Position numbers and translations under genes: made by a program | Assembly (NCBI GenBank): GCA_012840015.1 | Contig: DUMF01000002.1 | Span: 62,001 to 126,000, forward strand | Source: Bacillota bacterium | GTDB lineage: Bacteria; Bacillota; Sulfobacillia; DUMF01 | Direction: 5' to 3' | DNA: 64,000 nucleotides | Shown here: piece after piece, positions 9,323-22,698 of the stretch | Position numbering within the stretch: the stretch's first letter is position 1 | How the letters are laid out: each line of letters begins with the position of its first letter | Notes under the pieces: model-generated | What the model saw: the letters and a program-made list of their open reading frames with translations, nothing else | Told to the model about the DNA's origin: nothing | Database searches by the model: none

Positions 9323-10139
9323 GATTAGCACTAGTTGACATTGACTTCAAGACCAGGCTACCGCCGAGGGGACGAGTCTACGCTATCAGGAAGCGTCGGC
9401 GTAAAGTTTTCGTGGAGCAAGTTTTATGGGCTGGAGTAAATACTTGAGCCCCAAATATGGAGTTGATAGAGAAAAACCATGCAAAGGAGTGAGGCTCATC
9501 TTGCTAAGCAAACAGATCGTCTCTTTCTGGGACATTATCAGGTTTTAGCCCCCTAACTGATTTGGACGAGATGCCCTAAGGTTGCTAGGTTGAGATGAGG
9601 CACTCGGTAACAGAAGCTGCAAATAGTGAGGGAAGTGCTCGAGACCGGGAGCACTTCTATGGTGGCTCGCAGGCACAGTGTCAGAGACAATGTTGCAGGC
9701 CACTGGTGCGGAAGTTCATGATAATGCAAGGCGTGGTATAGTGGGCCGGGAACTGCCGGAGTACAGAGCACTTGCTGCTTAGAATGAGCGCCTAAAGAGG
9801 CTCTTGCGCGAAAAAGACCTGGAGATCGCCATTCTCAGGGATTGGGATTTGGTAAAAAAACGGAGCGCAGTTGGCAGAAAAGTTAGAGCTAAGGGACAAG
9901 TGGATTCAGGATGGCCATAGGCCTGGGATAGTGCTAAGGAGCGTTGGCGTCAGCCGTTCAACGTATTACTACCGGCGGTTACACAAGTCTAAGCAAGAAA
10001 GGAAGCACTGCGGCGGTCGGCCGTTGCCTAGCATATGCTACAGGGTTGATGGGGCGATCGTAAGCGATGAACAGGTCAAGGAACGGCTTTGCGAGTTGAT
10101 CGAGTGCAAGGGGTACGCGTACGGCTACCTAAAACTTGC

Positions 10140-10737
10140 TAGGCTCCATCATGAAACGCAACGACCCTTCACCCGGAAGGAGGTTTTTCACGTACTCCGC
10201 AGGCCTGTCCAGATCGTCAACACGGGTCTCGAAGCTAAAAGGAGCCCCTGACTGCCAGGCTGTTTCATCCACCGCTAGAGCGGCGTGCTTGACCTTCCTT
10301 GCCAGGTCAATGCCAACAGTGATCATGCTCTTCACCCCCGAGACTTCTCGGATGCGTGGGCTGCATCTGAGCCATGGCCGTGCTTCCCGCCATGCAACTT
10401 GATCAGGGGCAAGCCTCCAGTGGAGGGGCTTCCGCTGATCTTCTCAACCAGACATCACGACCGGCTGGGTTCAGGCGATCAGTCAATATGGACCATTACC
10501 CAAGGGAATAGTTCAGCCTGCCACCCACGCAAGCCGTTTACTCTGGAGTACTTGGACACATTGGTTCGGGCCCCTCCAGCAACTGGCCTTGCCGTATTGC
10601 CAACCCGCTCTACCAAAACGGGACAGCTTATCCACAATTTGAAAAGCTTGCAAACCCCTTCCTCTTACCCCCTCCCAACTACTATTCCAACAGTTATTCA
10701 CAGCCTAACCGATTGCCATAATACATGGGAACTTGCA
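10140..10737 (-). mobile_element. IS110-family fragment nested in the IS3 element
   Basis: On the minus strand 10335 to about 10146 encodes the N-terminus of an IS110 transposase: ITVGIDLARKVKHAALAVDE, with the first aspartate of the DEDD site, then PFSFETRVDDLDR. The remaining 10336-10737 is non-coding and repeated with divergence at 17122-17370. Both copies share an end at TACATGGGAA. It splits the IS3 orfB, so it arrived later. Confidence 0.65.
10336..10737. repeat. Diverged direct repeat, copy 1 (non-coding IS110 end)
   Basis: This stretch resembles 17122-17370 over most of its length, including GGGTTCAGGCGAT, GGGAATAGTTCAGCCTGCCA, GCAGCTTATCCACAATTT-like and CAGTTATTCACAGCCTAACC. It contains two DnaA-box-like 9-mers, TTATCCACA at 10628 and TTATTCACA at 10694, both kept in copy 2. 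Confidence 0.7.
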
Positions 10738-11483: not shown

Positions 11484-11497
11484 AAGCAAAAGCGAAA

Positions 11498-11760
11498 GAC
11501 GATGAAGGGGAAGAGTAGCTGGTAGACCTCTGGTTGCAGAGAGGGAGATTGGCTGGTGTGAGTCTCCTAACCGGAGACCAGTGAATGGGCCTTGGAGTTG
11601 CCGGCCGAAGTCGTAGGTAGGCTTGGACGGATGCCACCGTTAAAAGGCTACGGTATAACGGGAGAGAGCTCCTGCGTACCGGAAAAAGAGCGTACGGTCT
11701 TTAATGCCGTGCACTAGGGTGGCACCGCGGAAACCCCGTCCCTTGCAGGACGGGTTTTTT
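11498..11760 (+). ncRNA. T-box leader, specifier TGG (tryptophan)
   Basis: Senses uncharged tRNA and allows read-through into the transporter operon. The T-box sequence AGGGTGGCACCGCGG is at 11716-11730, directly before a terminator. Stem I is recognisable: AGTA-like motif near 11513, paired GCTGGT/ACCAGT and CTGGTT/AACCGG segments, AGAGAG and the distal loop GGCTGGTG. The specifier position after GTGAA (11581-11585) reads TGG at 11586-11588, followed by a purine, so tRNA-Trp is predicted. The variable T-box base is C (11723), which would pair with discriminator G73; bacterial tRNA-Trp has G73, whereas Ile, Leu and Val tRNAs have A73. Two independent positions therefore agree on tryptophan. 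Confidence 0.85.
11731..11760 (+). terminator. T-box regulated terminator
   Basis: Stem CCCGTCC (11735-11741) with GGACGGG (11748-11754), extended by AAA/TTT, then a run of T. It forms when the antiterminator with the T-box sequence does not. Confidence 0.9.
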
Positions 11761-11814
11761 GTTTCCCTTGTACCGTGCTTCGAGTTTTACAAAACTGAGA
11801 GGGAGGCTAAGCAA

Positions 11815-12978
11815 ATGAGAAAGGTAGTTTCGGGGTTCCTCGTCGTGTTTCTAGCAATGTTGGCCGTTGTGGGATGTTCGAATTCGGGTCGAAAGTCAAT
11901 TAAGATCGGTGCAGCTGGACCTTTCACGGGCGAATTGTCGAAGATCGGCCTCGATTCGCTTAACGCCATCAAGATGGCTGTGGAGGAGTGTAACCAATCA
12001 GGCGGGATCGACGGAAAAACTGTGGAAGTCGTAGTGGGCGATGACGCGGGTGACCCAGCGAAGGGCAAGATCGTGGCGGACAAATTCGTCGCTGACCCTG
12101 ACGTGCTTGGTGTGGTTGGCCCGATGAACAGCAGTGTTATTGCAGCAGCTTTGCCAGTGTATGAAAAGGCAGGACTTGTGATCATATCGCAATCTGGTAC
12201 AACGCCCGAGCTCACAGAGAAAGGCTTTAAGGTCATGCACCGCATTTGCCCGAGGGACGATGCACAGGGCATGGCGGCGGCGGCTTTCATATACAACGAG
12301 ATCAAACCCACAAAAGTCTATATCCTGGACGATAAAACCACTTACGGTCAAGGCTTGGCTGATCAGGTTGAAAAGGGCTTGAAATCGTACGGCCTGACGC
12401 AGATCAAACGAGACCAGGTGAGCACTCAGGACAAGGACTTTAGCGCGCTTGTCGCCTTGATAAAGTCGTACAATCCGGAGATGGTCTATATGGCTTTTGC
12501 AAACCCCGCTCAAGCTGCCGCACTCGCTAAACAGCTAGCTGGAGTGGGTGTAAAACCTGCCCTTATGGGCGGAGATGGGTGCAGGGAAAGGGATCAGCTC
12601 ATAGGCGGTGGGGGCGAGGCGGTCCAGGGTATGTTTGTGACAGCCATTGGGAGGAACGTCAAGGAGGTTCCGGAAGCCCGAGAGTTCGTTCAGAAATTTG
12701 AGGGGAAGTACGAAGGGATGAGCATCTTCTCAGGGCAGAGTTACGAAGCCACGAAAATACTCTTGAATGCCATAAAGGAAGCCCATAAGGCCGGGGACTT
12801 AACCAGGCAAGGGGTACTGAAAGCCCTGCATGCTACCAAGGACTATAAGGGTATCCTCGGATTCCCGGTGAGTTTCGATGCCAAGGGGGATCTTGTAGGT
12901 GGAGAAATCTTCGTTCTGAAAGTGAGCGGAAGTGACTTCGTTGAGGTGAAGAAATACACTACAGGCAACATTAAGTGA
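11815..12978 (+). CDS. livJ: Amino acid ABC transporter substrate-binding lipoprotein
   Basis: Binds an amino acid outside the membrane for the LivHMGF-type (HAAT) importer. The signal peptide ends in the lipobox AVVGC near residue 20, then KIGAAGPFTGELSKIGLDSLNAI opens the type I periplasmic binding fold (Peripla_BP_6). GDDAGDP, SGTTPEL and VYILDDKTTYGQGLAD are family-typical. ATG 11815 is chosen because GGGAGG lies eight bases upstream and the lipoprotein signal begins there; a longer frame begins inside the T-box. The family usually takes branched-chain amino acids, but the Trp T-box suggests tryptophan or related aromatic substrates. Confidence 0.92.
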   Translation: MRKVVSGFLVVFLAMLAVVGCSNSGRKSIKIGAAGPFTGELSKIGLDSLNAIKMAVEECNQSGGIDGKTVEVVVGDDAGDPAKGKIVADKFVADPDVLGVVGPMNSSVIAAALPVYEKAGLVIISQSGTTPELTEKGFKVMHRICPRDDAQGMAAAAFIYNEIKPTKVYILDDKTTYGQGLADQVEKGLKSYGLTQIKRDQVSTQDKDFSALVALIKSYNPEMVYMAFANPAQAAALAKQLAGVGVKPALMGGDGCRERDQLIGGGGEAVQGMFVTAIGRNVKEVPEAREFVQKFEGKYEGMSIFSGQSYEATKILLNAIKEAHKAGDLTRQGVLKALHATKDYKGILGFPVSFDAKGDLVGGEIFVLKVSGSDFVEVKKYTTGNIK

Positions 12979-12988
12979 GGTGTGGGGA

Positions 12989-13912
12989 ATGGGCTTCTGG
13001 GGGCATCTACCCCAGCAGTTGGTGAACGGGTTAGTTTTGGGAAGCGTATATGCACTGCTTGCCCTGGGATATTCCATGGTATATGGCATCCTCCGGGTCT
13101 TGAACTTCGCGCACGGTGACGTGTTCATGGTGTGTTCATTTGCAGGCTGGGCAGCTCTCACCGCTCTACTGAAAAGCCGTATAGCTGCCTATCCTGCAGT
13201 GACCCTGTTGCTCGTGCTGGCGGTTGCCATGGGCGTTGGCGTCGCGTTGGGAATGGCAATCGAGAGATTCGCATACAGACCTCTGCGGAAGGCAACCAGG
13301 CTTGCGCCACTTATCAGTGCAATAGGAGTTTCGATTTTCCTGCAGAACGTGGTCATGCTTGCGACTGGCGGCAGGGCCAAGGTGTATCCCCTGACCTCCG
13401 TAATACCATCCGGGCTGTACCTCAAGGTGGGCACGATTACGGTGTCGTCTACCGGTCTTCTAGTGATTGGAGTTTCAATTATACTGACCCTCGGGCTGAA
13501 CTACGTGATTCGCACTACCAGCCTCGGACGAATGATGAGGGCGACCGCTGAAGACATTGAAGCTGCGGGTTTCATGGGTATACCGATAGACTACGTCATT
13601 GCGTTTACGTTTGCCCTGGGTTCCGCTCTTGCGGGGGCCGGGGGAGTTCTAATAGGGCTTTACTATACTCAGATAGATTTCTCCCTTGGTTTTTCCGCAG
13701 GGATGAAGGCATTCACCGCCGCTGTTCTGGGGGGCATCGGGAACCTCGAAGGAGCTGTGCTTGGAGGAGTAGTACTGGGCCTTGCAGAGAGCATGGGGAC
13801 TGCCTTTATAGCGCCGGTCTATAAGGACGCCATCGCTTTCGCCATTCTGATTATCTGCTTGATCCTGCGGCCAAACGGGATCCTTGGGGACGACGTACCG
13901 GAGAAGGTGTGA
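12989..13912 (+). CDS. livH: ABC transporter permease LivH
   Basis: First membrane subunit of the HAAT importer, about 308 aa with eight or nine hydrophobic helices. Family motifs: GLVLGSVYALLALGYSMVYG and ILRVLNFAHGDVFM near the N-terminus, and GGIGNLEGAVLGGVVLGLAE near the C-terminus. ATG 12989 follows GAGG at eight bases; a GTG at 12980 is possible. It lies 10 bases after livJ and is followed by the fusion gene. Confidence 0.92.
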   Translation: MGFWGHLPQQLVNGLVLGSVYALLALGYSMVYGILRVLNFAHGDVFMVCSFAGWAALTALLKSRIAAYPAVTLLLVLAVAMGVGVALGMAIERFAYRPLRKATRLAPLISAIGVSIFLQNVVMLATGGRAKVYPLTSVIPSGLYLKVGTITVSSTGLLVIGVSIILTLGLNYVIRTTSLGRMMRATAEDIEAAGFMGIPIDYVIAFTFALGSALAGAGGVLIGLYYTQIDFSLGFSAGMKAFTAAVLGGIGNLEGAVLGGVVLGLAESMGTAFIAPVYKDAIAFAILIICLILRPNGILGDDVPEKV

Positions 13913-13916
13913 CGAA

Positions 13917-16382
13917 GTGAAGCGCACAAAAGAAAACCAGTCCATTGTAATCGTCGCAGCCATAGCACTTGGTTTGTTACCTCTGTTTGATTCAAACCCT
14001 TACCATCTCAGGCTCCTGACAACGATTAGCCTTTACGTTGTGCTGGCGTTAGGGCTGAATGTTCTGGTAGGGCTTGCAGGGTTGCTAGACATGGGCTATA
14101 TAGCCTTTTACGCTATTGGGGCATATGTCTATGCATTGCTAGCATCGCCGCAACTTGGCGTCCACCTTCCCTTCTTGACAGTGCTGCCGCTGGCTGTCCT
14201 CATTGCGGTCGGAGTGAGCCTGTTGATCGGGCTTGCGACGCTTCGCCTCAGGGGGGACTACCTGGCTGTAGTTACAATGAGTTTCGCTGAAATCCTTCGC
14301 ATTTTCCTTACAAACCTTGACCGGCCCGTTAACATCACGAACGGACCTAACGGAATCGTCGAGATAGATCCGCCCAGGTTTGGGGCTCTAACCATTGCTA
14401 CACCCCAACAAAATTACTACTTGCTCCTCCTGTTTGCCCTGGCGGCCTATCTGGTTTATACTCGCCTGATCAGGTCTCAGACGGGGCTCAAATGGAGAGC
14501 TCTCAGAGACGACGTTATTGCAGCACAGAGCCTCGGCGTAGATCCGCTGCATTATCAGATGCTGGCTTATGCTACGGGCGCGGCGTTTGCAAGCACTGCA
14601 GGGGTGCTTTTTTCTGCGTGGCAAGGAGCTGTGTTTCCGCAGAACTTCACCCTGGGCGAGCTCATCACCGTCTACTGCATGGTCATACTTGGTGGAACAG
14701 GCAATCAAACCGGCACGCTGCTAGGAGTAGTTGCTCTGGTGCTGGTCCCAGAGATACTGCGAACCTATAGTGTCTACCGCATGGCTATATACGGGATTCT
14801 CCTGGTTATAATGATGATTTACCGGCCTCAGGGTATTCTTCCTCAGAAGCCTGGACTGTGCTCAATGCCAAGGGGCGGGTGTCGCAAGGAGAGGAAAGTC
14901 GGCTTAGCACCGTGCAACGAGCCCGTACTGGTTGTGAGGAACATTACTAAAAGGTTTGAGGGCCTTCTTGTCCTCGATGGAGTGAGCTTTGAGCTTCGCA
15001 GGGGTGAGGTGCTAAGCATTATCGGACCTAACGGCGCAGGCAAGACCACCCTGATAAACATTCTGACAGGGGTCACAAAACCGGACGATGGGGAGTTCTT
15101 CTTAAAAGGGAAAAAACTGAATGGACTGAAGCCACATACTGTATACAAGCTGGGGCTATCGAGGACATTTCAGAACCTGCGGTTGTTCAAGGGTATGACG
15201 GTTGCAGAGAATGTCCTTGTGGGGCTTGACCTTACAGCCGCGACGGGTGCGGGGGACGTTCTCGAATTCTTAGACCGGGACCTGGCTTTAAGGCAGGACC
15301 AGCCCGCTGATGGCTTGAGCTATGCGCACCGAAAGATACTAGAGGTGGCCCGAGCCATAGCCGGAAACCCCGAAGTCATCCTTCTGGATGAACCGGCGGC
15401 TGGGATGAATCCGGCAGAACTACAAGAGCTGATGGAAAGGATAAACACACTCAAGCATGAAGGGTACTCAATTGTGCTGGTCGAACATCAAATGCCCCTT
15501 GTGGCAGGCGTTTCAGACAGGGTCATCGTGCTTGACCACGGCAGGAAGATCGCGGAAGGCCCACCCGAGAACGTAATGGCCGACCAGGGAGTAGTCGAAG
15601 TATACCTCGGGCACCAGATACCGTATTACGAAAGGGCAATTTCACAACTTACGAGCCGGCCCATGCTTGAGTTGAGTGAGGTGGAGGCAGGCTACGATCG
15701 CGTCAAGGTTCTTCATGGAATTAGTCTCGAGGTCAAACAGGGGGAAGTCGTGTGCTTGTTGGGCGCAAACGGGGCGGGAAAGACTACCACTATAAAGACA
15801 ATACTGGGCAGCCTGAAACCAGATAGGGGCAAGATTTGCTTCAAGGGCGAGGATATAACGGGTGAAAACCCATTCCGTGTTGTAAGGAAAGGGATTGGCC
15901 TTGTGCCTGAGGGGAGAAGGATCTTCTCGCGGATGACGGTCGAAGAGAATCTAAAACTGGGGAGTTCAGACGCTGACGCAATGGAGTACGTCTACTCGCT
16001 TTTCCCGAGGCTGAAGGAACGTAGGCAACAGCGGGCTGGTACGCTATCTGGAGGAGAGCAGCAGATGCTCGCCATAGGAAGGGCACTCATGATGAGGCCT
16101 GAGCTGCTGCTGCTAGATGAGCCGTCCATGGGGCTTGCTCCCGTGATGGTTGACAGGATATTTGAGGCCATACTCGAGCTTAACCGTAATGGGACAACCA
16201 TACTCATGGTTGAGCAAAACGCGAGGAGAGCCCTGCAAGTGGCGCATCGAGGCTACGTCCTCCAGAACGGGCGAATCGCAGCGGCGGGCCCATCTAGGCA
16301 GCTACTTGAGAGCGAAACTTTACGCAGTGCCTACTTTGGGGATCCTGCTCAGCTTAGCCATCCTGTGTTTTTAACCCCCTAA
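13917..16382 (+). CDS. Fused LivM permease - LivG ATPase - LivF ATPase
   Basis: A single 821-aa frame joins three subunits that are normally separate. Residues 1-309 are LivM (LNVLVGLAGLLDMGYIAFYA, then the permease loop, ending IYRPQGILP). After a 27-aa linker, residues 337-578 are LivG with GPNGAGKTT and VILLDEPAAGMNPAE; its helical domain is some 25-30 residues short and the ABC signature is LSYAH instead of LSYGQ. Residues 583-821 are LivF with GANGAGKTT, LSGGEQQM and LLLDEPSMGLAP, all intact, starting at what looks like the old livF ATG (15663). GTG 13917 is the likely start, four bases after livH. The last five residues (VFLTP) come from the left end of the IS3 remnant, so an insertion replaced the native end. 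Confidence 0.9.
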   Translation: MKRTKENQSIVIVAAIALGLLPLFDSNPYHLRLLTTISLYVVLALGLNVLVGLAGLLDMGYIAFYAIGAYVYALLASPQLGVHLPFLTVLPLAVLIAVGVSLLIGLATLRLRGDYLAVVTMSFAEILRIFLTNLDRPVNITNGPNGIVEIDPPRFGALTIATPQQNYYLLLLFALAAYLVYTRLIRSQTGLKWRALRDDVIAAQSLGVDPLHYQMLAYATGAAFASTAGVLFSAWQGAVFPQNFTLGELITVYCMVILGGTGNQTGTLLGVVALVLVPEILRTYSVYRMAIYGILLVIMMIYRPQGILPQKPGLCSMPRGGCRKERKVGLAPCNEPVLVVRNITKRFEGLLVLDGVSFELRRGEVLSIIGPNGAGKTTLINILTGVTKPDDGEFFLKGKKLNGLKPHTVYKLGLSRTFQNLRLFKGMTVAENVLVGLDLTAATGAGDVLEFLDRDLALRQDQPADGLSYAHRKILEVARAIAGNPEVILLDEPAAGMNPAELQELMERINTLKHEGYSIVLVEHQMPLVAGVSDRVIVLDHGRKIAEGPPENVMADQGVVEVYLGHQIPYYERAISQLTSRPMLELSEVEAGYDRVKVLHGISLEVKQGEVVCLLGANGAGKTTTIKTILGSLKPDRGKICFKGEDITGENPFRVVRKGIGLVPEGRRIFSRMTVEENLKLGSSDADAMEYVYSLFPRLKERRQQRAGTLSGGEQQMLAIGRALMMRPELLLLDEPSMGLAPVMVDRIFEAILELNRNGTTILMVEQNARRALQVAHRGYVLQNGRIAAAGPSRQLLESETLRSAYFGDPAQLSHPVFLTP

Positions 16383-16676
16383 CTGATTTGGACGAGACGC
16401 CTAAGGTCGGTAGATTGAAATCAGGGGGCGGTGACCACGTGTGGCACGCGGGCAGTTTACCCGGGAACAGAAACTGCAGATCGTGAGGGAGGTACTTGGG
16501 ACCGGGAGCACTTCGATAGTGGCTTGCAGGCACAGTATCAGAGACAGTGTTGCAGGCCGCTGGGTGCGAAAGTTCAAGGAGTTGTGCGGGGCATTTGAGA
16601 ATGTAAGGCGTGGTGTAGTGGGCGGGAACCGCCGGAGTACAGCGCACTTGCTGCTGAGAATGAGCGCCTGAAGAGA
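16371..16676 (+). mobile_element. IS3-family remnant (copy B, orfA only)
   Basis: Same left end as copy A, then an orfA frame from about 16441: RGQFTREQKLQIVREVL, GTGSTSI, GRWVRKFKELCGAFEN. It is less damaged than copy A but loses frame after VRRGV and stops at NERLKR, with no orfB. It overlaps the end of the livMGF fusion. Confidence 0.75.
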
Positions 16677-16780
16677 GTCATAATGAACGAGGCCGGCTCC
16701 CTGAGTCGTTAGCCGTAGGTTACACTGGATATGCATGCACCACCAGTGCAAAGGTACAAACGAAAGGAGAGCCGGCAAGA

Positions 16781-16915
16781 TGAATAGTATCACATAACGA
16801 TTTTGAGTCTATACGGAAGCTGATAAGGCAGCTTGGCAGGGTTTACGAGCTGCAAGTCTGCTATGAGTCAGGGCCAGCTGGCTACGTACTGCACAGGCAG
16901 CTTCAGTAAATTGCA
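16781..16915 (+). mobile_element. IS110-family transposase N-terminal fragment
   Basis: After an ATG at 16781 and an early stop, the frame reads RKLIRQLGRVYELQVCYESG and PAGYVLHRQLQ, matching the IS110 segment normally VYEAGP.GY.L.R.L. It is a different family member from the piece that follows, so at least two IS110-like elements have merged here. Confidence 0.55.
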
Positions 16916-16924
16916 CGATTGTGG

Positions 16925-17370
16925 CCTTACCGTGCGGTTAGCCGAACTCTTACGAGGTTTTTGACGTGTTCCAAAAGCCTCTCCGGGTCGTCAGTCCGGG
17001 TCTTGAAGCTGAAAGAAGCTCCTGACTGCCTGGCTGTTTCATCCAGTTGTACAGCCAAATGCTTGCCCTTCCCTTCCAGGTCTATGCCGACAGTGTCCGC
17101 CAATGTTCTCAACCGGAGCAACGCAACCGGTGGGTTCAGGCGATTAGTTCAATATGGGCCGTTACCCAGGGGAATAGTTCAGCCTGCCACCTACGCAAGC
17201 CTTACTCGGGAGTACTTAGCACATTGGTTTAAGCCCCTCCAAATCCAAAACAGGGCAGCTTATCCACAATTTCCACAGCTTGCACATTCTTTCCCCTGCC
17301 CCCTACCCCTCCCAATTACTACTCCTACAGTTATTCACAGCCTAACCGATCGCGATGATACATGGGAATG
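16925..17370 (-). mobile_element. IS110-family fragment, second copy
   Basis: Minus-strand frame 17121 to about 16930 reads VGIDLEGKGKHLAVQLDETA and FSFKTRTDDPERLLEHVKNL, homologous to the nested fragment at 10140-10335. Bases 17122-17370 repeat the same non-coding end, including DnaA-box-like TTATCCACA (17260) and TTATTCACA (17331). The shared end TACATGGGAA is followed by unique DNA leading to the LigD polymerase gene. Confidence 0.65.
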
Positions 17371-17427
17371 TGCACGCCGGGAAAGCAGCGAATGTCGGCC
17401 GAACCGCGCGGAAACAATACCCGTAAA

Positions 17428-18632: not shown

Positions 18633-18647
18633 CTCATCAGTGATGAG
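18633..18647. promoter_or_regulatory. Candidate operator palindrome
   Basis: CTCATC-AGT-GATGAG is a perfect 6-bp inverted repeat lying just downstream of the expected transcription start, a place where a repressor would block the promoter. The FCD-family regulator encoded in the operon is the natural candidate. Inference. Confidence 0.4.
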
Positions 18648-18675
18648 TACCCAGCAGTTGAAGGAGGGACGAAGT

Positions 18676-19134
18676 TTGAAGGCAGAAGACAAGTTGAAGG
18701 AAATGGGAATAACGTTACCGGAGCCGGCCAAACCCGTGGCGGCATATGTTCCAGCTATAGTGTCTAAAGGGCTGGTTTATACGGCGGGTCAAATCCCGCT
18801 GCAGGGCGGGCAACTTACATACAAGGGCAAAGTGGGTCAAGAGCTTAGCCTCGAGCAGGGCTATGAGGCCGCCAAAGTGTGCGTCATCAACTGTCTGGCT
18901 GCCATTAAGGGAGTACTGGGCTCTCTGGACAGGGTGACGAGGATCGTTAAAGTGGTGGGTTTCGTTAACAGTGCTCCCGGCTTTACCGATCAACCAAAGG
19001 TAATCAACGGCGCCTCCGAACTCTTGGTACAGGTCTTCGGCGAGCAGGGTAAACATGCGCGTTCGGCTGTAGGGGTTTCGGAGTTACCGTTGGGGGCAGC
19101 GGTAGAGGTAGAAGTGATCGCTGAGTTCGAATGA
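18676..19134 (+). CDS. ridA: RidA/YjgF family enamine-imine deaminase
   Basis: Hydrolyses reactive enamine/imine intermediates released by PLP enzymes. 152 aa, the longer YjgF subtype. Motifs: [44 protein letters not shown] and [23 protein letters not shown] 18676 is chosen because GGAGGG is seven bases upstream; an upstream ATG lacks this. It leads a tight operon with a PLP enzyme, which fits its role of clearing PLP-derived imines. Confidence 0.9.
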
Positions 19135-19162
19135 CAGCTCTTCAAATCAAGGAGGGGTAAGA

Positions 19163-20632
19163 ATGGCGAAGTTTAAGTATAGGTGGCAGATGTATAAACA
19201 CATCCAGGCGAACTTGGGCAACATTTATGCAGAGGCTAAGAAGGCAGCCGCGGAAATCGGCATTACTGACGAGCTCAAAGGCAAGATTGGGCTTACGGGT
19301 GCGGTGTCCGGGTGCCCAGCTCCGATGACCAAAGACGTGATGGAGGCTTCAGAAAAGGGCGCCAAAGAGGTGATCCCGCTCGCAACGCTTGTGGAGCAGA
19401 TTAGGGAGATCGTGAAAGACGTTTACGGGGACGAGTTCGACGCTTGCCCAGTGAATACTTGCGAAGCAGGTCTTTGGGTTGCCTTCGATACTTTGTTCAC
19501 TCCCCCTATGCTAGGCCGCGGTGATAACTACAGGGCGCGCTACATCGCTCCTTATGAGAAGCACATGCACCACCAAGGCGGCTACGGCAGGCCGTTCCCT
19601 CCGAAGTATAAAGATTATCTCGCGGATAGAGGCTGCACCGCCGGCGAACTTGGCTTCTATGGAAAGCGCCAGAATAACCTCGATGTCGTGATAGTGAAGC
19701 TTGCCGGCGCCAAATATGATTGCCACGGTATCAAGTACTGGCCGGTGCCCCTTTTGACTGAAGTCGATGTAGAGGCTTCCACGGAAAAACTGGCTAGCGC
19801 AGCAGATGATCACGTGGAGTTCTTGAGCGGCTTCACTTCGCTCGGTTACGATACCCCAGGCTACGGTTACGGCGCCAAAGATTCGGACGGCGCGCCGTTG
19901 CTGCAAAAGTACATCGGCGAACTGGCACAGGAGTTCGACGTACCGTATATTGTGGATAACGCTTGGGGGCTTCCTTTCGTAGGGACTGACCCGCGCAAGA
20001 TCGGTGCCGATGTTATGATATATAGCATGGATAAGGCTTCCGGCGCGGCCACGAGTGGACTGTTGATCGGTAAAGAAGAGTGCATGGTGCCCATCAGGCG
20101 TGCTCTGGGCATGCACGGCGATAGGTACGGTACGCTCGCTTCTTACGGCAAGGCAGCCTACGTGACGCAGGACCCAGGAAAAGAGGCTTTGTTGACTCAG
20201 ATAGCCGTGCTCAAGAAATTGAGGGATAACCCCAAGGCATACACTGGGACTGTAGATCAGCTTTACGACCTAGTTGTAGATGAACTGAAAGAGCTGCATC
20301 CGAAGATAAGGCAAGGTCTGTTGGTCTCGAAGTCGTATAACTGCTGTACTGTTGAAATCAACTACGAAAACACGTGGAAAGGTGATGGCTTGGGCTTTCC
20401 CATTTTCTCGATCGAAGACATGTACGCTGGCTCCCACGCAATACAAACCGGCCTCTCCCAAATGGGAGTGGTCCCGACGATAGCATACGACGGCAACATC
20501 ATGATTTCACCTGGACAGGGTACATCTGACGAAAACGGTAATATCATACCCGAAAAGATGAGACTTGCCATAAAGGCGCTCGTCCGGCTGATGAATATCA
20601 TAGGCAAGTACAGCGGATTTACGGAGGAGTAA
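19163..20632 (+). CDS. PLP-dependent enzyme, fold type I, reaction unknown
   Basis: 489 aa with the layout of fold type I aminotransferase/lyase enzymes: [17 protein letters not shown] supplies the aspartate that binds the PLP ring nitrogen (about D265), and [19 protein letters not shown] gives the Schiff-base lysine (about K291). The N-terminal region has unusual cysteine-rich patches ([18 protein letters not shown]). ATG with AAGGAGGGG eight bases upstream. I do not recognise the exact family; it resembles the cysteine desulfurase/SepCysS-like side of the fold more than classical aminotransferases. Neighbours RidA, an FAD enzyme and a B12 mutase point to amino acid breakdown. Confidence 0.75.
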
Positions 20633-20653
20633 GCTCCCAAAGGAGGCACGCTT

Positions 20654-21937
20654 ATGGCCAAGGTAGTGGTTGTGGGCGGTGGATGGTCGGGTTGTGCGGC
20701 GGCCATCGCCGCCCGTAAGGCCGGAGCTGAGGTGTTGTTGCTCGAACGCACAGATCAACTGCTCGGTACTGGCCTTGTGGGAGGGATAATGCGGAACAAC
20801 GGCCGATTCACTGCTGCGGAAGAAGCGATCGCACTAGGAGCTGGGGAGTTGTTCAAAGCCTGTGATAGCGTGGCGAGACACGTAAACGTGGATTTCCCTG
20901 GGCACAAACATGCCACTCTGTACGATGTGGCACGAATCGAACCCAAAGTGCGGGGGATAGTCCGGGATTTGGGAGTGGATGTCCGCTTTGAGACCCGCGT
21001 AAGCGACATCGAGATGGAGGGGAAAAAGATCACAGCCGTAAAGGGCGAGGACGGCGAAGTGTTCACGGGAGATGTTTTCGTGGAGTGTACAGGCACTGCC
21101 GGGCCTCAAGGGAACTGTCTTAAATACGGCAACGGTTGTTGCATGTGCATCCTCCGCTGTCCCACTTTCGGTCCGCGCGTGAGTATCGCCGCGAAGGCGG
21201 GAATCAAAGAGATGATGGGCGGCTCCGCCGTAGGTACGGTCGGGGCAATGAGTGGCTCTTGCAAGTTGCTCAAGGAATCCCTTGCTCCGGAAATCGTCGA
21301 ACAATTGGATTCCAAGGGAGTGGCCGTGATACCGATACCCGAGGAGCTGCGCAAAAAAGATGCTCTGACCTTTAAAGCGTGCCAACAGTATGCGTTACCC
21401 GACTTTGCGGAAAACGTCGTGCTGCTCGATACGGGCCATGCAAAGCTCATGACCTCGTTCTTTCCCCTCGAGAAACTTAGAAAGATACCGGGTTTCGCAA
21501 ATGCGCGCTTTGAGGACCCGTATTCCGGCGGTAGAGGCAATTCAATGAGGTATTTGGCCATTTCGCCGAGGAGCAACGCTCTCAAGACCGAGGGAGTAGA
21601 TAACCTCTTCTGCGGCGGCGAGAAGACCGGCCCTATGGTGGGTCATACCGAGGCAATAGTGACTGGAACGCTCGCCGGGCATAATGCTGTCAGATGGGCG
21701 CTAGGGATGGAGCTTCTGGAGCTGCCTACGAGCCTCGCCATAGGCGACATCATTGCCTACGTTGGTGAGCAAGTGAAGAAACCGGAAGGGCTTCGGAAGA
21801 AATACACCTTCTCAGGATCGGTCTACTTCGAGCGGATGAAGCAGCTCGGCCTTTACACCACAGATGTGGCGGCCATACGCGAACGGGTTAGGAAAGCTGG
21901 CCTCGAAGGCATTTTCGACAGGCCTTTGGTTAAATGA
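20654..21937 (+). CDS. FAD-dependent oxidoreductase (GidA/TrmFO-like fold)
   Basis: 427 aa. The N-terminus VVVVGGGWSGCAAAIAARKAG is a standard FAD dinucleotide-binding motif, followed by VLLLERTDQLLGTGLVGG. A cysteine cluster GNGCCMCILRCPTFGP near residue 160 could hold an Fe-S centre or active-site thiols. The C-terminal part has NLFCGGEKTGPMVGHTEAI, like the second FAD contact in GidA/TrmFO proteins. It is 21 bases after the PLP gene and overlaps the regulator by four bases (ATGA). A role in oxidising an amino acid or imine is plausible but not shown. Confidence 0.75.
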   Translation: MAKVVVVGGGWSGCAAAIAARKAGAEVLLLERTDQLLGTGLVGGIMRNNGRFTAAEEAIALGAGELFKACDSVARHVNVDFPGHKHATLYDVARIEPKVRGIVRDLGVDVRFETRVSDIEMEGKKITAVKGEDGEVFTGDVFVECTGTAGPQGNCLKYGNGCCMCILRCPTFGPRVSIAAKAGIKEMMGGSAVGTVGAMSGSCKLLKESLAPEIVEQLDSKGVAVIPIPEELRKKDALTFKACQQYALPDFAENVVLLDTGHAKLMTSFFPLEKLRKIPGFANARFEDPYSGGRGNSMRYLAISPRSNALKTEGVDNLFCGGEKTGPMVGHTEAIVTGTLAGHNAVRWALGMELLELPTSLAIGDIIAYVGEQVKKPEGLRKKYTFSGSVYFERMKQLGLYTTDVAAIRERVRKAGLEGIFDRPLVK

Positions 21938-22698
21938 CAGGTGCGGACGGTATGTTGGACGCTCGCGACGAGCAATTGTATCAAGCGTTAAAGGCCATTT
22001 CTGAAGCGAAGGGCGCTGCCGGGTCCGGTAGCTTGGCCAGCGCCCTTCGGGCAGCCGGGCTACAGGTCAGCGAGGCCACCGCTGGTAGAATCCTCAGGGA
22101 GCTCGATCAGAAGGGTTTGACCGAAAGATCTGGGTTCAAGGGGCGAGTGCTCACTGAGGCTGGTAAGCGCCATTTGCGTGAGCTCAACGCGAAACGGGAG
22201 CAGGCGGGCTATAGCGAGGAGCTCTTGCGGGCCTTGCAAGCCGGAGAAAAGGACGAGCTGGTCGAAGTTTTGGTGGCACGTAGGGCCATCGAGAGAGAGA
22301 CAGCCAGACTGGCAGCACTGAACGCCACCGACGAACAGATAGAGGCACTCAGGCGATGTATCGAGGTGCACCAAAAGCATTTCGAGGAAGGGGTTGTGGA
22401 TGCCGAAGATGACTTGACCTTTCACAGGTTGGTGTCCGAAGCTTCCCACAACAGGGTTTTGATCGCTGCATCTCGCCTGGTCCGTCAGGACAGCCAAATG
22501 GCACCGATACTCGAATTCATCAGGCGGAACGTCGGGTCCGGTGTGGTCCACGACCACAGAAAAGTATTCCACGCTATAGAAGCAAAGGATCCTGTGGCAG
22601 CAGAAGAAGCCATGGTGAATCATATCGAAAACGTCATCGCAGACGTAAAAAGGTATTGGGAACTTCACCGGAGAGAGAATGGGGGCAATTGCATATGA
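21934..22698 (+). CDS. Transcriptional regulator with FCD-type sensor domain
   Basis: 254 aa. The first 80 residues form a winged helix (SEATAGRILRELDQKGLTER, then a wing and GRVLTEAGKRHL), less like GntR than usual. Residues about 95-240 are an all-helical FCD domain, with VARRAIERETARLAALNAT, DDLTFHRLVSEASHN and a histidine at HDHRKVFHAIEAKD, positions that in the family bind a metal and an organic acid. Overlap with both neighbours (ATGA joints) shows it belongs to the operon and probably senses its substrate. Confidence 0.8.
   Translation: MTGADGMLDARDEQLYQALKAISEAKGAAGSGSLASALRAAGLQVSEATAGRILRELDQKGLTERSGFKGRVLTEAGKRHLRELNAKREQAGYSEELLRALQAGEKDELVEVLVARRAIERETARLAALNATDEQIEALRRCIEVHQKHFEEGVVDAEDDLTFHRLVSEASHNRVLIAASRLVRQDSQMAPILEFIRRNVGSGVVHDHRKVFHAIEAKDPVAAEEAMVNHIENVIADVKRYWELHRRENGGNCI

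Follow-up and report, generated by a model that had tools for sequence, protein, structure and literature searches.

The 64-kb stretch of Bacillota DNA analysed here (hereafter the window) carries a T-box leader specific for tryptophan in front of an operon encoding a Liv-type (HAAT) importer, in which the LivM, LivG and LivF domains lie in a single chain. Leader and importer are conserved together in orthologous loci, and computational searches find trp genes missing from the source genome. Transporters of the Liv type abound, and as a matter of routine they are annotated as 'branched-chain amino acid' transporters. We put the probability at roughly three in four that a transcriptional tRNA-Trp T-box controls an importer of a distinct HAAT subfamily, with L-tryptophan (possibly also other aromatics) as its likeliest substrate, in a cell that is seemingly a tryptophan auxotroph.

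Anatomy and specificity of the leader

The leader is the only T-box found by cmscan in the window (Table 1). It matches the RF00230 model over its full length (model positions 1-219), with a score of 112.8 bits against a gathering threshold of 93 and an E-value of 3.8e-24. The first-pass annotation, made from the letters alone, had begun the feature at 11498, which is close to the beginning of stem I, and the livJ start codon lies at 11815. The specifier loop reads AGTGAA-TGG-G, and the variable base of the T-box sequence is complementary to G73 of tRNA-Trp. The terminator is built from the arms CCCGTCC and GGACGGG around a CTTGCA loop, followed by TTTTTT, and it shares sequence with the antiterminator's 3' arm. 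In its stem I, TGG, UGGC and antiterminator/terminator, the leader shares the layout of other Trp-specific T-boxes of RF00230 and differs from them in nothing essential; what is unusual is the gene that it controls.

Table 1 Features of the T-box leader and the transporter operon, in window coordinates
Feature	Position	Strand	Basis
T-box leader (RF00230), whole element	11493..11746	+	covariance model match
Stem I, with AGAG bulge ~11538-11543 and GGTGTGA loop ~11555-11561	11499..11599	+	Rfam structure line, limits approximate
Specifier codon TGG (Trp)	11586..11588	+	sequence, register calibrated on the genome's other T-boxes, orthologous leaders
T-box sequence AGGGTGGCACCGCG; UGGC 11720-11723, variable base C 11723	11716..11729	+	sequence, Rfam alignment, tRNA N73 table
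Intrinsic terminator, mutually exclusive with antiterminator	11735..11760	+	7-bp stem, 6 GC pairs, TTTTTT tail
livJ-like lipoprotein, substrate-binding protein, 387 aa	11815..12978	+	Peripla_BP_6, 210 bits
livH-like permease; alternative start ATG 12989	12980..13912	+	BPD_transp_2, 146 bits
Fused LivM-LivG-LivF, 832 aa as listed	13884..16382	+	single ORF with BPD_transp_2 and two ABC_tran regions

The register of the specifier was calibrated within the same genome, where 13 T-boxes were counted at E <= 0.001. The rule 'codon + 5 nt + GGAG (or variant)' was applied to those with obvious targets, the target genes being named by reading their translations. It returned the expected amino acids for metG (ATG), alaS (GCC), leuS (CTC), proC (CCC), hom/thrB (ACC), ilvN-ilvC (GTC) and an aminotransferase adjoining serA (TCC), and in these calibration T-boxes the UGGN base matches N73 of the corresponding tRNAs. 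One tRNA-Trp (CCA) was found in the genome and its discriminator base is G73. Among the genome tRNAs fetched, G73 is limited to tRNA-Gln, -Asn, -Asp, -Ser and -Trp; every tRNA-Met has A73 and every tRNA-Gly U73. Two overlapping readings of the specifier, ATG (Met) and GGG/GGC (Gly), were ruled out because UGGC needs G73, leaving Trp as the only amino acid that fits TGG together with UGGC.

The first-pass annotation had already proposed a TGG specifier after GTGAA and a variable base C pairing with G73 of tRNA-Trp, and both proposals hold under the calibrated register. A covariance alignment, run in case it placed the specifier on an Ile, Leu or Val codon, likewise gave TGG with G73 pairing. 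That the leader senses tRNA-Trp is, from these sequence features, near certain.

T-boxes act through an established mechanism in which uncharged tRNA stabilises the antiterminator. During tryptophan shortage, uncharged tRNA-Trp would base-pair with the leader at two places, its CCA anticodon to the UGG of stem I and its GCCA end to the UGGC of the antiterminator, so that the terminator would be blocked and livJ-livH-livMGF transcribed. Charged tRNA-Trp would be unable to pair in this way and transcription would end at the terminator. From the anatomy of the leader we infer that the operon is regulated by the T-box in vivo. It is highly improbable that the element is instead a degenerate relic that does not regulate the operon. 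Two circumstances could be read in that sense, the position of the operon between two degenerate direct repeats and the outcome of an upstream scan for a consensus sigma-70 promoter, which found none; upstream there are just TTGACA and TATAAT, 21 nt apart. All the functional elements of the leader are intact, however, its score ranks third among the genome's 13 T-boxes, and the T-box has been kept in divergent orthologues.

The transporter and its ligand pocket

By Pfam, the operon encodes a complete HAAT domain set, comprising a Peripla_BP_6 binding protein, two BPD_transp_2 domains and two ABC_tran domains, in agreement with the family call made from the letters alone, a branched-chain-type (HAAT) importer. 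The true start of the fused LivM-LivG-LivF protein is probably slightly downstream of 13884. The same fusion is present in the six other loci checked by Pfam, Spirochaetota and Actinomycetota among them, and ORF lengths suggest a single chain in most of the remaining loci too. LivJ scores 210.9 bits with NF011933, below the cut-off of 477 bits set for curated branched-chain LivJ. Pfam gives solely Peripla_BP_6 and its relatives for LivJ; the TrpXYZ-type binding-protein family, which we take to be ABC_sub_bind (PF04392), is absent. In an AlphaFold model of LivJ (mean pLDDT 86), the closest solved folds are 3ip5, 4n0q, 3td9 and 1usg, which are family neighbours only. The operon is flanked by the direct repeats mentioned above (window 9543-10737 and 16369-17374, ~6.7 kb apart), which are 78-94% alike in pieces and are perhaps remnants of mobile elements.

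Pocket positions were read from a sequence alignment to E. coli LivJ. The residues that presumably hold the amino-acid head group, Ser79, Thr102 and the acid at 226, are unchanged throughout the clade of orthologues. The side-chain wall, by contrast, shows a fixed set of changes across the whole clade: Tyr18 is replaced by Ile, Leu77 by Met, Cys78 by Asn, Ala100 by Ser (Ala in one) and Trp278 by Gly, and Tyr202 is lost, the residue facing this last position being ambiguous by one place between HMMER and MAFFT. Tyr18 and Tyr202 are both present in the HAAT paralogue that stands behind a Val T-box in the same genome, and a tryptophanase-linked relative from the Actinomycetota also has Ile18, Met77, Asn78 and Ser100. 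The pattern points to a ligand that is an amino acid whose side chain is larger or of another kind, without proving tryptophan.

The specificity of a T-box tells what the cell senses, which is not strictly what the pump carries. We infer the substrate to be, most likely, L-tryptophan or a broader set of aromatic amino acids. Could this be an ordinary branched-chain or broad hydrophobic HAAT importer that was merely put under tryptophan control, with tryptophan at most one of several substrates? The nearest solved relatives bind GABA/Pro/Ala and Leu/Ile/Val, and control of multi-specific carriers by a T-box for a single amino acid has been argued earlier, the broad-specificity LIVCS carriers being the case in point (PMC2494555). 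We nevertheless consider this unlikely. The pocket differs fixedly from those of LivJ, LivK and the Val-T-box paralogue, the genome already has that separate HAAT system under a Val T-box, every readable orthologous leader across many families carries TGG with no swap to a Leu, Ile or Val codon, and one relative has a tryptophanase gene as its neighbour. The paralogous HAAT operon (G000:C4:9000-17000) consists of five separate genes, and the T-box before it has GTC (Val) as its specifier and UGGU as its T-box motif.

The use of T-boxes to assign transporters is an established method (PMC2494555), and several known systems invite comparison. E. coli LivJHMGF (LivJ 1z15, LivK 1usg) has the same domains and gene order, and the window LivJ is ~30% identical by structure comparison; the window system differs in its one-chain LivM-LivG-LivF and in the loss of Tyr18, Tyr202 and Trp278. 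In Streptococcus suis, trpXYZ lies behind a Trp T-box, is induced at low tryptophan and is required for growth at low tryptophan (PMC9382623). The two systems are alike in encoding an ABC importer, in following a Trp T-box and in occurring in tryptophan auxotrophs, but the streptococcal one uses a different binding-protein family (solved relative 3lft) in place of Peripla_BP_6 with paired permease domains and paired ATPases in a Liv arrangement. An NSS transporter of the Bacillus cereus group was likewise assigned by its Trp T-box (PMC2494555), but is a secondary symporter rather than an ABC system. The same survey lists Trp ABC cases and does not name HAAT among them. No Trp-T-box HAAT was found in the literature searched; the main T-box surveys of 2008/2009 (RNA, MMBR) lay outside that search and may hold a prior mention. 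The apparent novelty lies in finding a Trp T-box over a conserved HAAT subfamily whose LivM, LivG and LivF form one chain.

Conservation and tryptophan metabolism

LivJ was found at E <= 1e-60 in eight of the 151 genomes searched, the source genome included. A T-box containing GAA-TGG-R and UGGC accompanies each of the other seven (7/7), whose LivJ proteins are 54-61% identical and come from other families of the class. Genome contigs were also scanned for orthologues: a single-sequence scan returned no match and an alignment-based scan 54 loci, with 32 orthologues in named genomes; these are 53-64% identical and comprise 30 MAG loci from Bacillota and two from Spirochaetota. Together with the window and two loci from outside the scanned set, the 30 from Bacillota make up 33 Bacillota loci at about 53-65% identity. 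The specifier is TGG in all 31 of their leaders with a readable stem I, and UGGC is present in 31 of 32 readable leaders; the exception, UGGU in locus L083, could wobble-pair with G73. Five Bacillota orthologues seemed at first to lack a T-box. In four of them a TGG T-box stands before upstream genes for a FeS protein and a tungsten-type aldehyde ferredoxin oxidoreductase (AOR), the FeS-AOR pair, and the fifth (L070) is cut by the end of its contig.

In a LivJ tree one branch separates the 33 Bacillota loci from the rest, corresponding to a single label change against an average of 21 after shuffling, although that branch itself is modestly supported (84/56). Just outside lie two Spirochaetota sequences and one from the Actinomycetota (45% identity), all without a T-box. 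The Actinomycetota locus (L120) has a tryptophanase gene (661 bits) behind the transporter, and its contig also carries an AOR. From a reading of the sequence only, the operon is preceded in one genome (G043) by aroA, aroE, aroC and aroK-aroB, and in another (G056) by an aroB-like gene.

The source genome is 96% complete. Neither TrpC nor TrpA was found in it and no TrpB exceeded the cut-off (best score 40 bits), whereas 14 of 14 control genomes have TrpA, TrpB and TrpC. The gene for IorA, the alpha subunit of indolepyruvate ferredoxin oxidoreductase (G000:C28:147477-148858, minus strand), is in several pieces with internal stop codons and looks broken. The organism is apparently unable to synthesise tryptophan, and the importer would feed L-tryptophan to such a cell. 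TrpA is missing from 17 of 22 T-box genomes, compared with 42 of 151 relatives at large, a comparison confounded by kinship and by gaps in MAGs; within the eight genomes of the class the correlate is seen in only four. TrpA is present in five of the 22 T-box genomes, so the importer also occurs outside auxotrophs.

The first-pass annotation had suggested tryptophan, or else indole or another aromatic compound, as the substrate. Tryptophan or an aromatic amino acid is favoured by the clade-wide TGG and UGGC, the loss of TrpA, TrpB and TrpC, the tryptophanase in L120 and the changed pocket. Indole is unlikely: the residues for the amino-acid head group have been retained, and the genome offers no TrpB that could use it.

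The window also holds, at 18640-22698, a row of genes for a RidA-like protein, a PLP-type enzyme (489 aa; Pfam returned nothing significant for it), an FAD oxidoreductase and an FCD-type regulator.

Other T-boxes of the genome and the FeS-AOR genes

Two further leaders in the genome read TGG with UGGC, one before a FeS-AOR gene pair and one before genes for a YfcC-type permease and an amidohydrolase. The former (L067:10702-10974; G000:C23:74700-74974, minus strand) precedes a FeS protein with TIGR04076 and ferredoxin domains and a tungsten-type AOR. The latter (L010; G000:C23:68954-69243, plus strand) scores 84 bits, below gathering, and its tryptophan reading is less sure because a C, not a purine, follows the codon. 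In four loci of a UBA6811-like subclade (L068, L071, L074 and L075), one TGG T-box stands before a FeS-AOR-livJ-livH-livMGF operon, whilst in the source genome the orthologous FeS-AOR genes stand behind a Trp T-box separate from that of the importer. General control of AOR orthologues by Trp T-boxes was considered and dropped: none was found at the AOR orthologues of six other genomes (the flank in L160 being short), so the link is limited to some lineages. No paper joining a T-box to AOR was found in the literature searched.

The AOR genes bring in another reading, in which the importer takes up a precursor or breakdown product of tryptophan (indole, indoleacetate or another aryl acid) that is made into tryptophan with the help of the co-regulated tungsten-type AOR. 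The Trp T-boxes before FeS-AOR here and before FeS-AOR-livJHMGF in the UBA6811-like subclade speak for such a route, the Actinomycetota relative has AOR on its HAAT contig, and there are HAAT binding proteins whose ligands are aromatic acids (4evq, 4f8j, 4eyq). The invariant amino-acid head-group positions speak against it, as do the AOR orthologues of the six genomes just described; moreover, with no TrpB over the cut-off and IorA broken, there is no evident route from indole or indoleacetate to tryptophan. We regard it as very unlikely. A wider proposal is that in these uncultured Bacillota the fused HAAT importer and the tungsten-type AOR belong to one tryptophan regulon and form an undescribed route for tryptophan auxotrophs to acquire or salvage tryptophan or another indole compound; it is speculative, and we give it little credence.

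Two other T-boxes of the genome deserve mention in their own right. A weak one (L013; 55.9 bits; G000:C8:24560-24798, plus strand) has the codon TCC (Ser) and UGGC and lies ahead of an apparent methylthioadenosine phosphorylase gene, an unexpected target. In the leuS T-box (L008; CTC; G000:C19:31303-31603, minus strand), an entire tRNA-Ala(GGC) gene separates stem III from the antiterminator. A tRNA-Ala(GGC) gene lies immediately upstream of leuS in 20 of the 30 leuS loci fetched, our own included (relatives L170-L199), and a full-length T-box match encloses it in 12 of the 15 loci scanned. Processing of this tRNA would separate the sensor from the antiterminator. No paper describing a tRNA-Ala inside a leuS T-box was found in the literature searched.

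Returning to the importer and to tryptophan as its most likely substrate, an RNA element conserved across a clade here names an amino acid, on the strength of which the subfamily with one-chain LivM-LivG-LivF and a changed pocket should be re-annotated as a tryptophan/aromatic importer. The subfamily offers a concrete residue signature, and suggests how apparent tryptophan auxotrophs among uncultured Bacillota may obtain their tryptophan.
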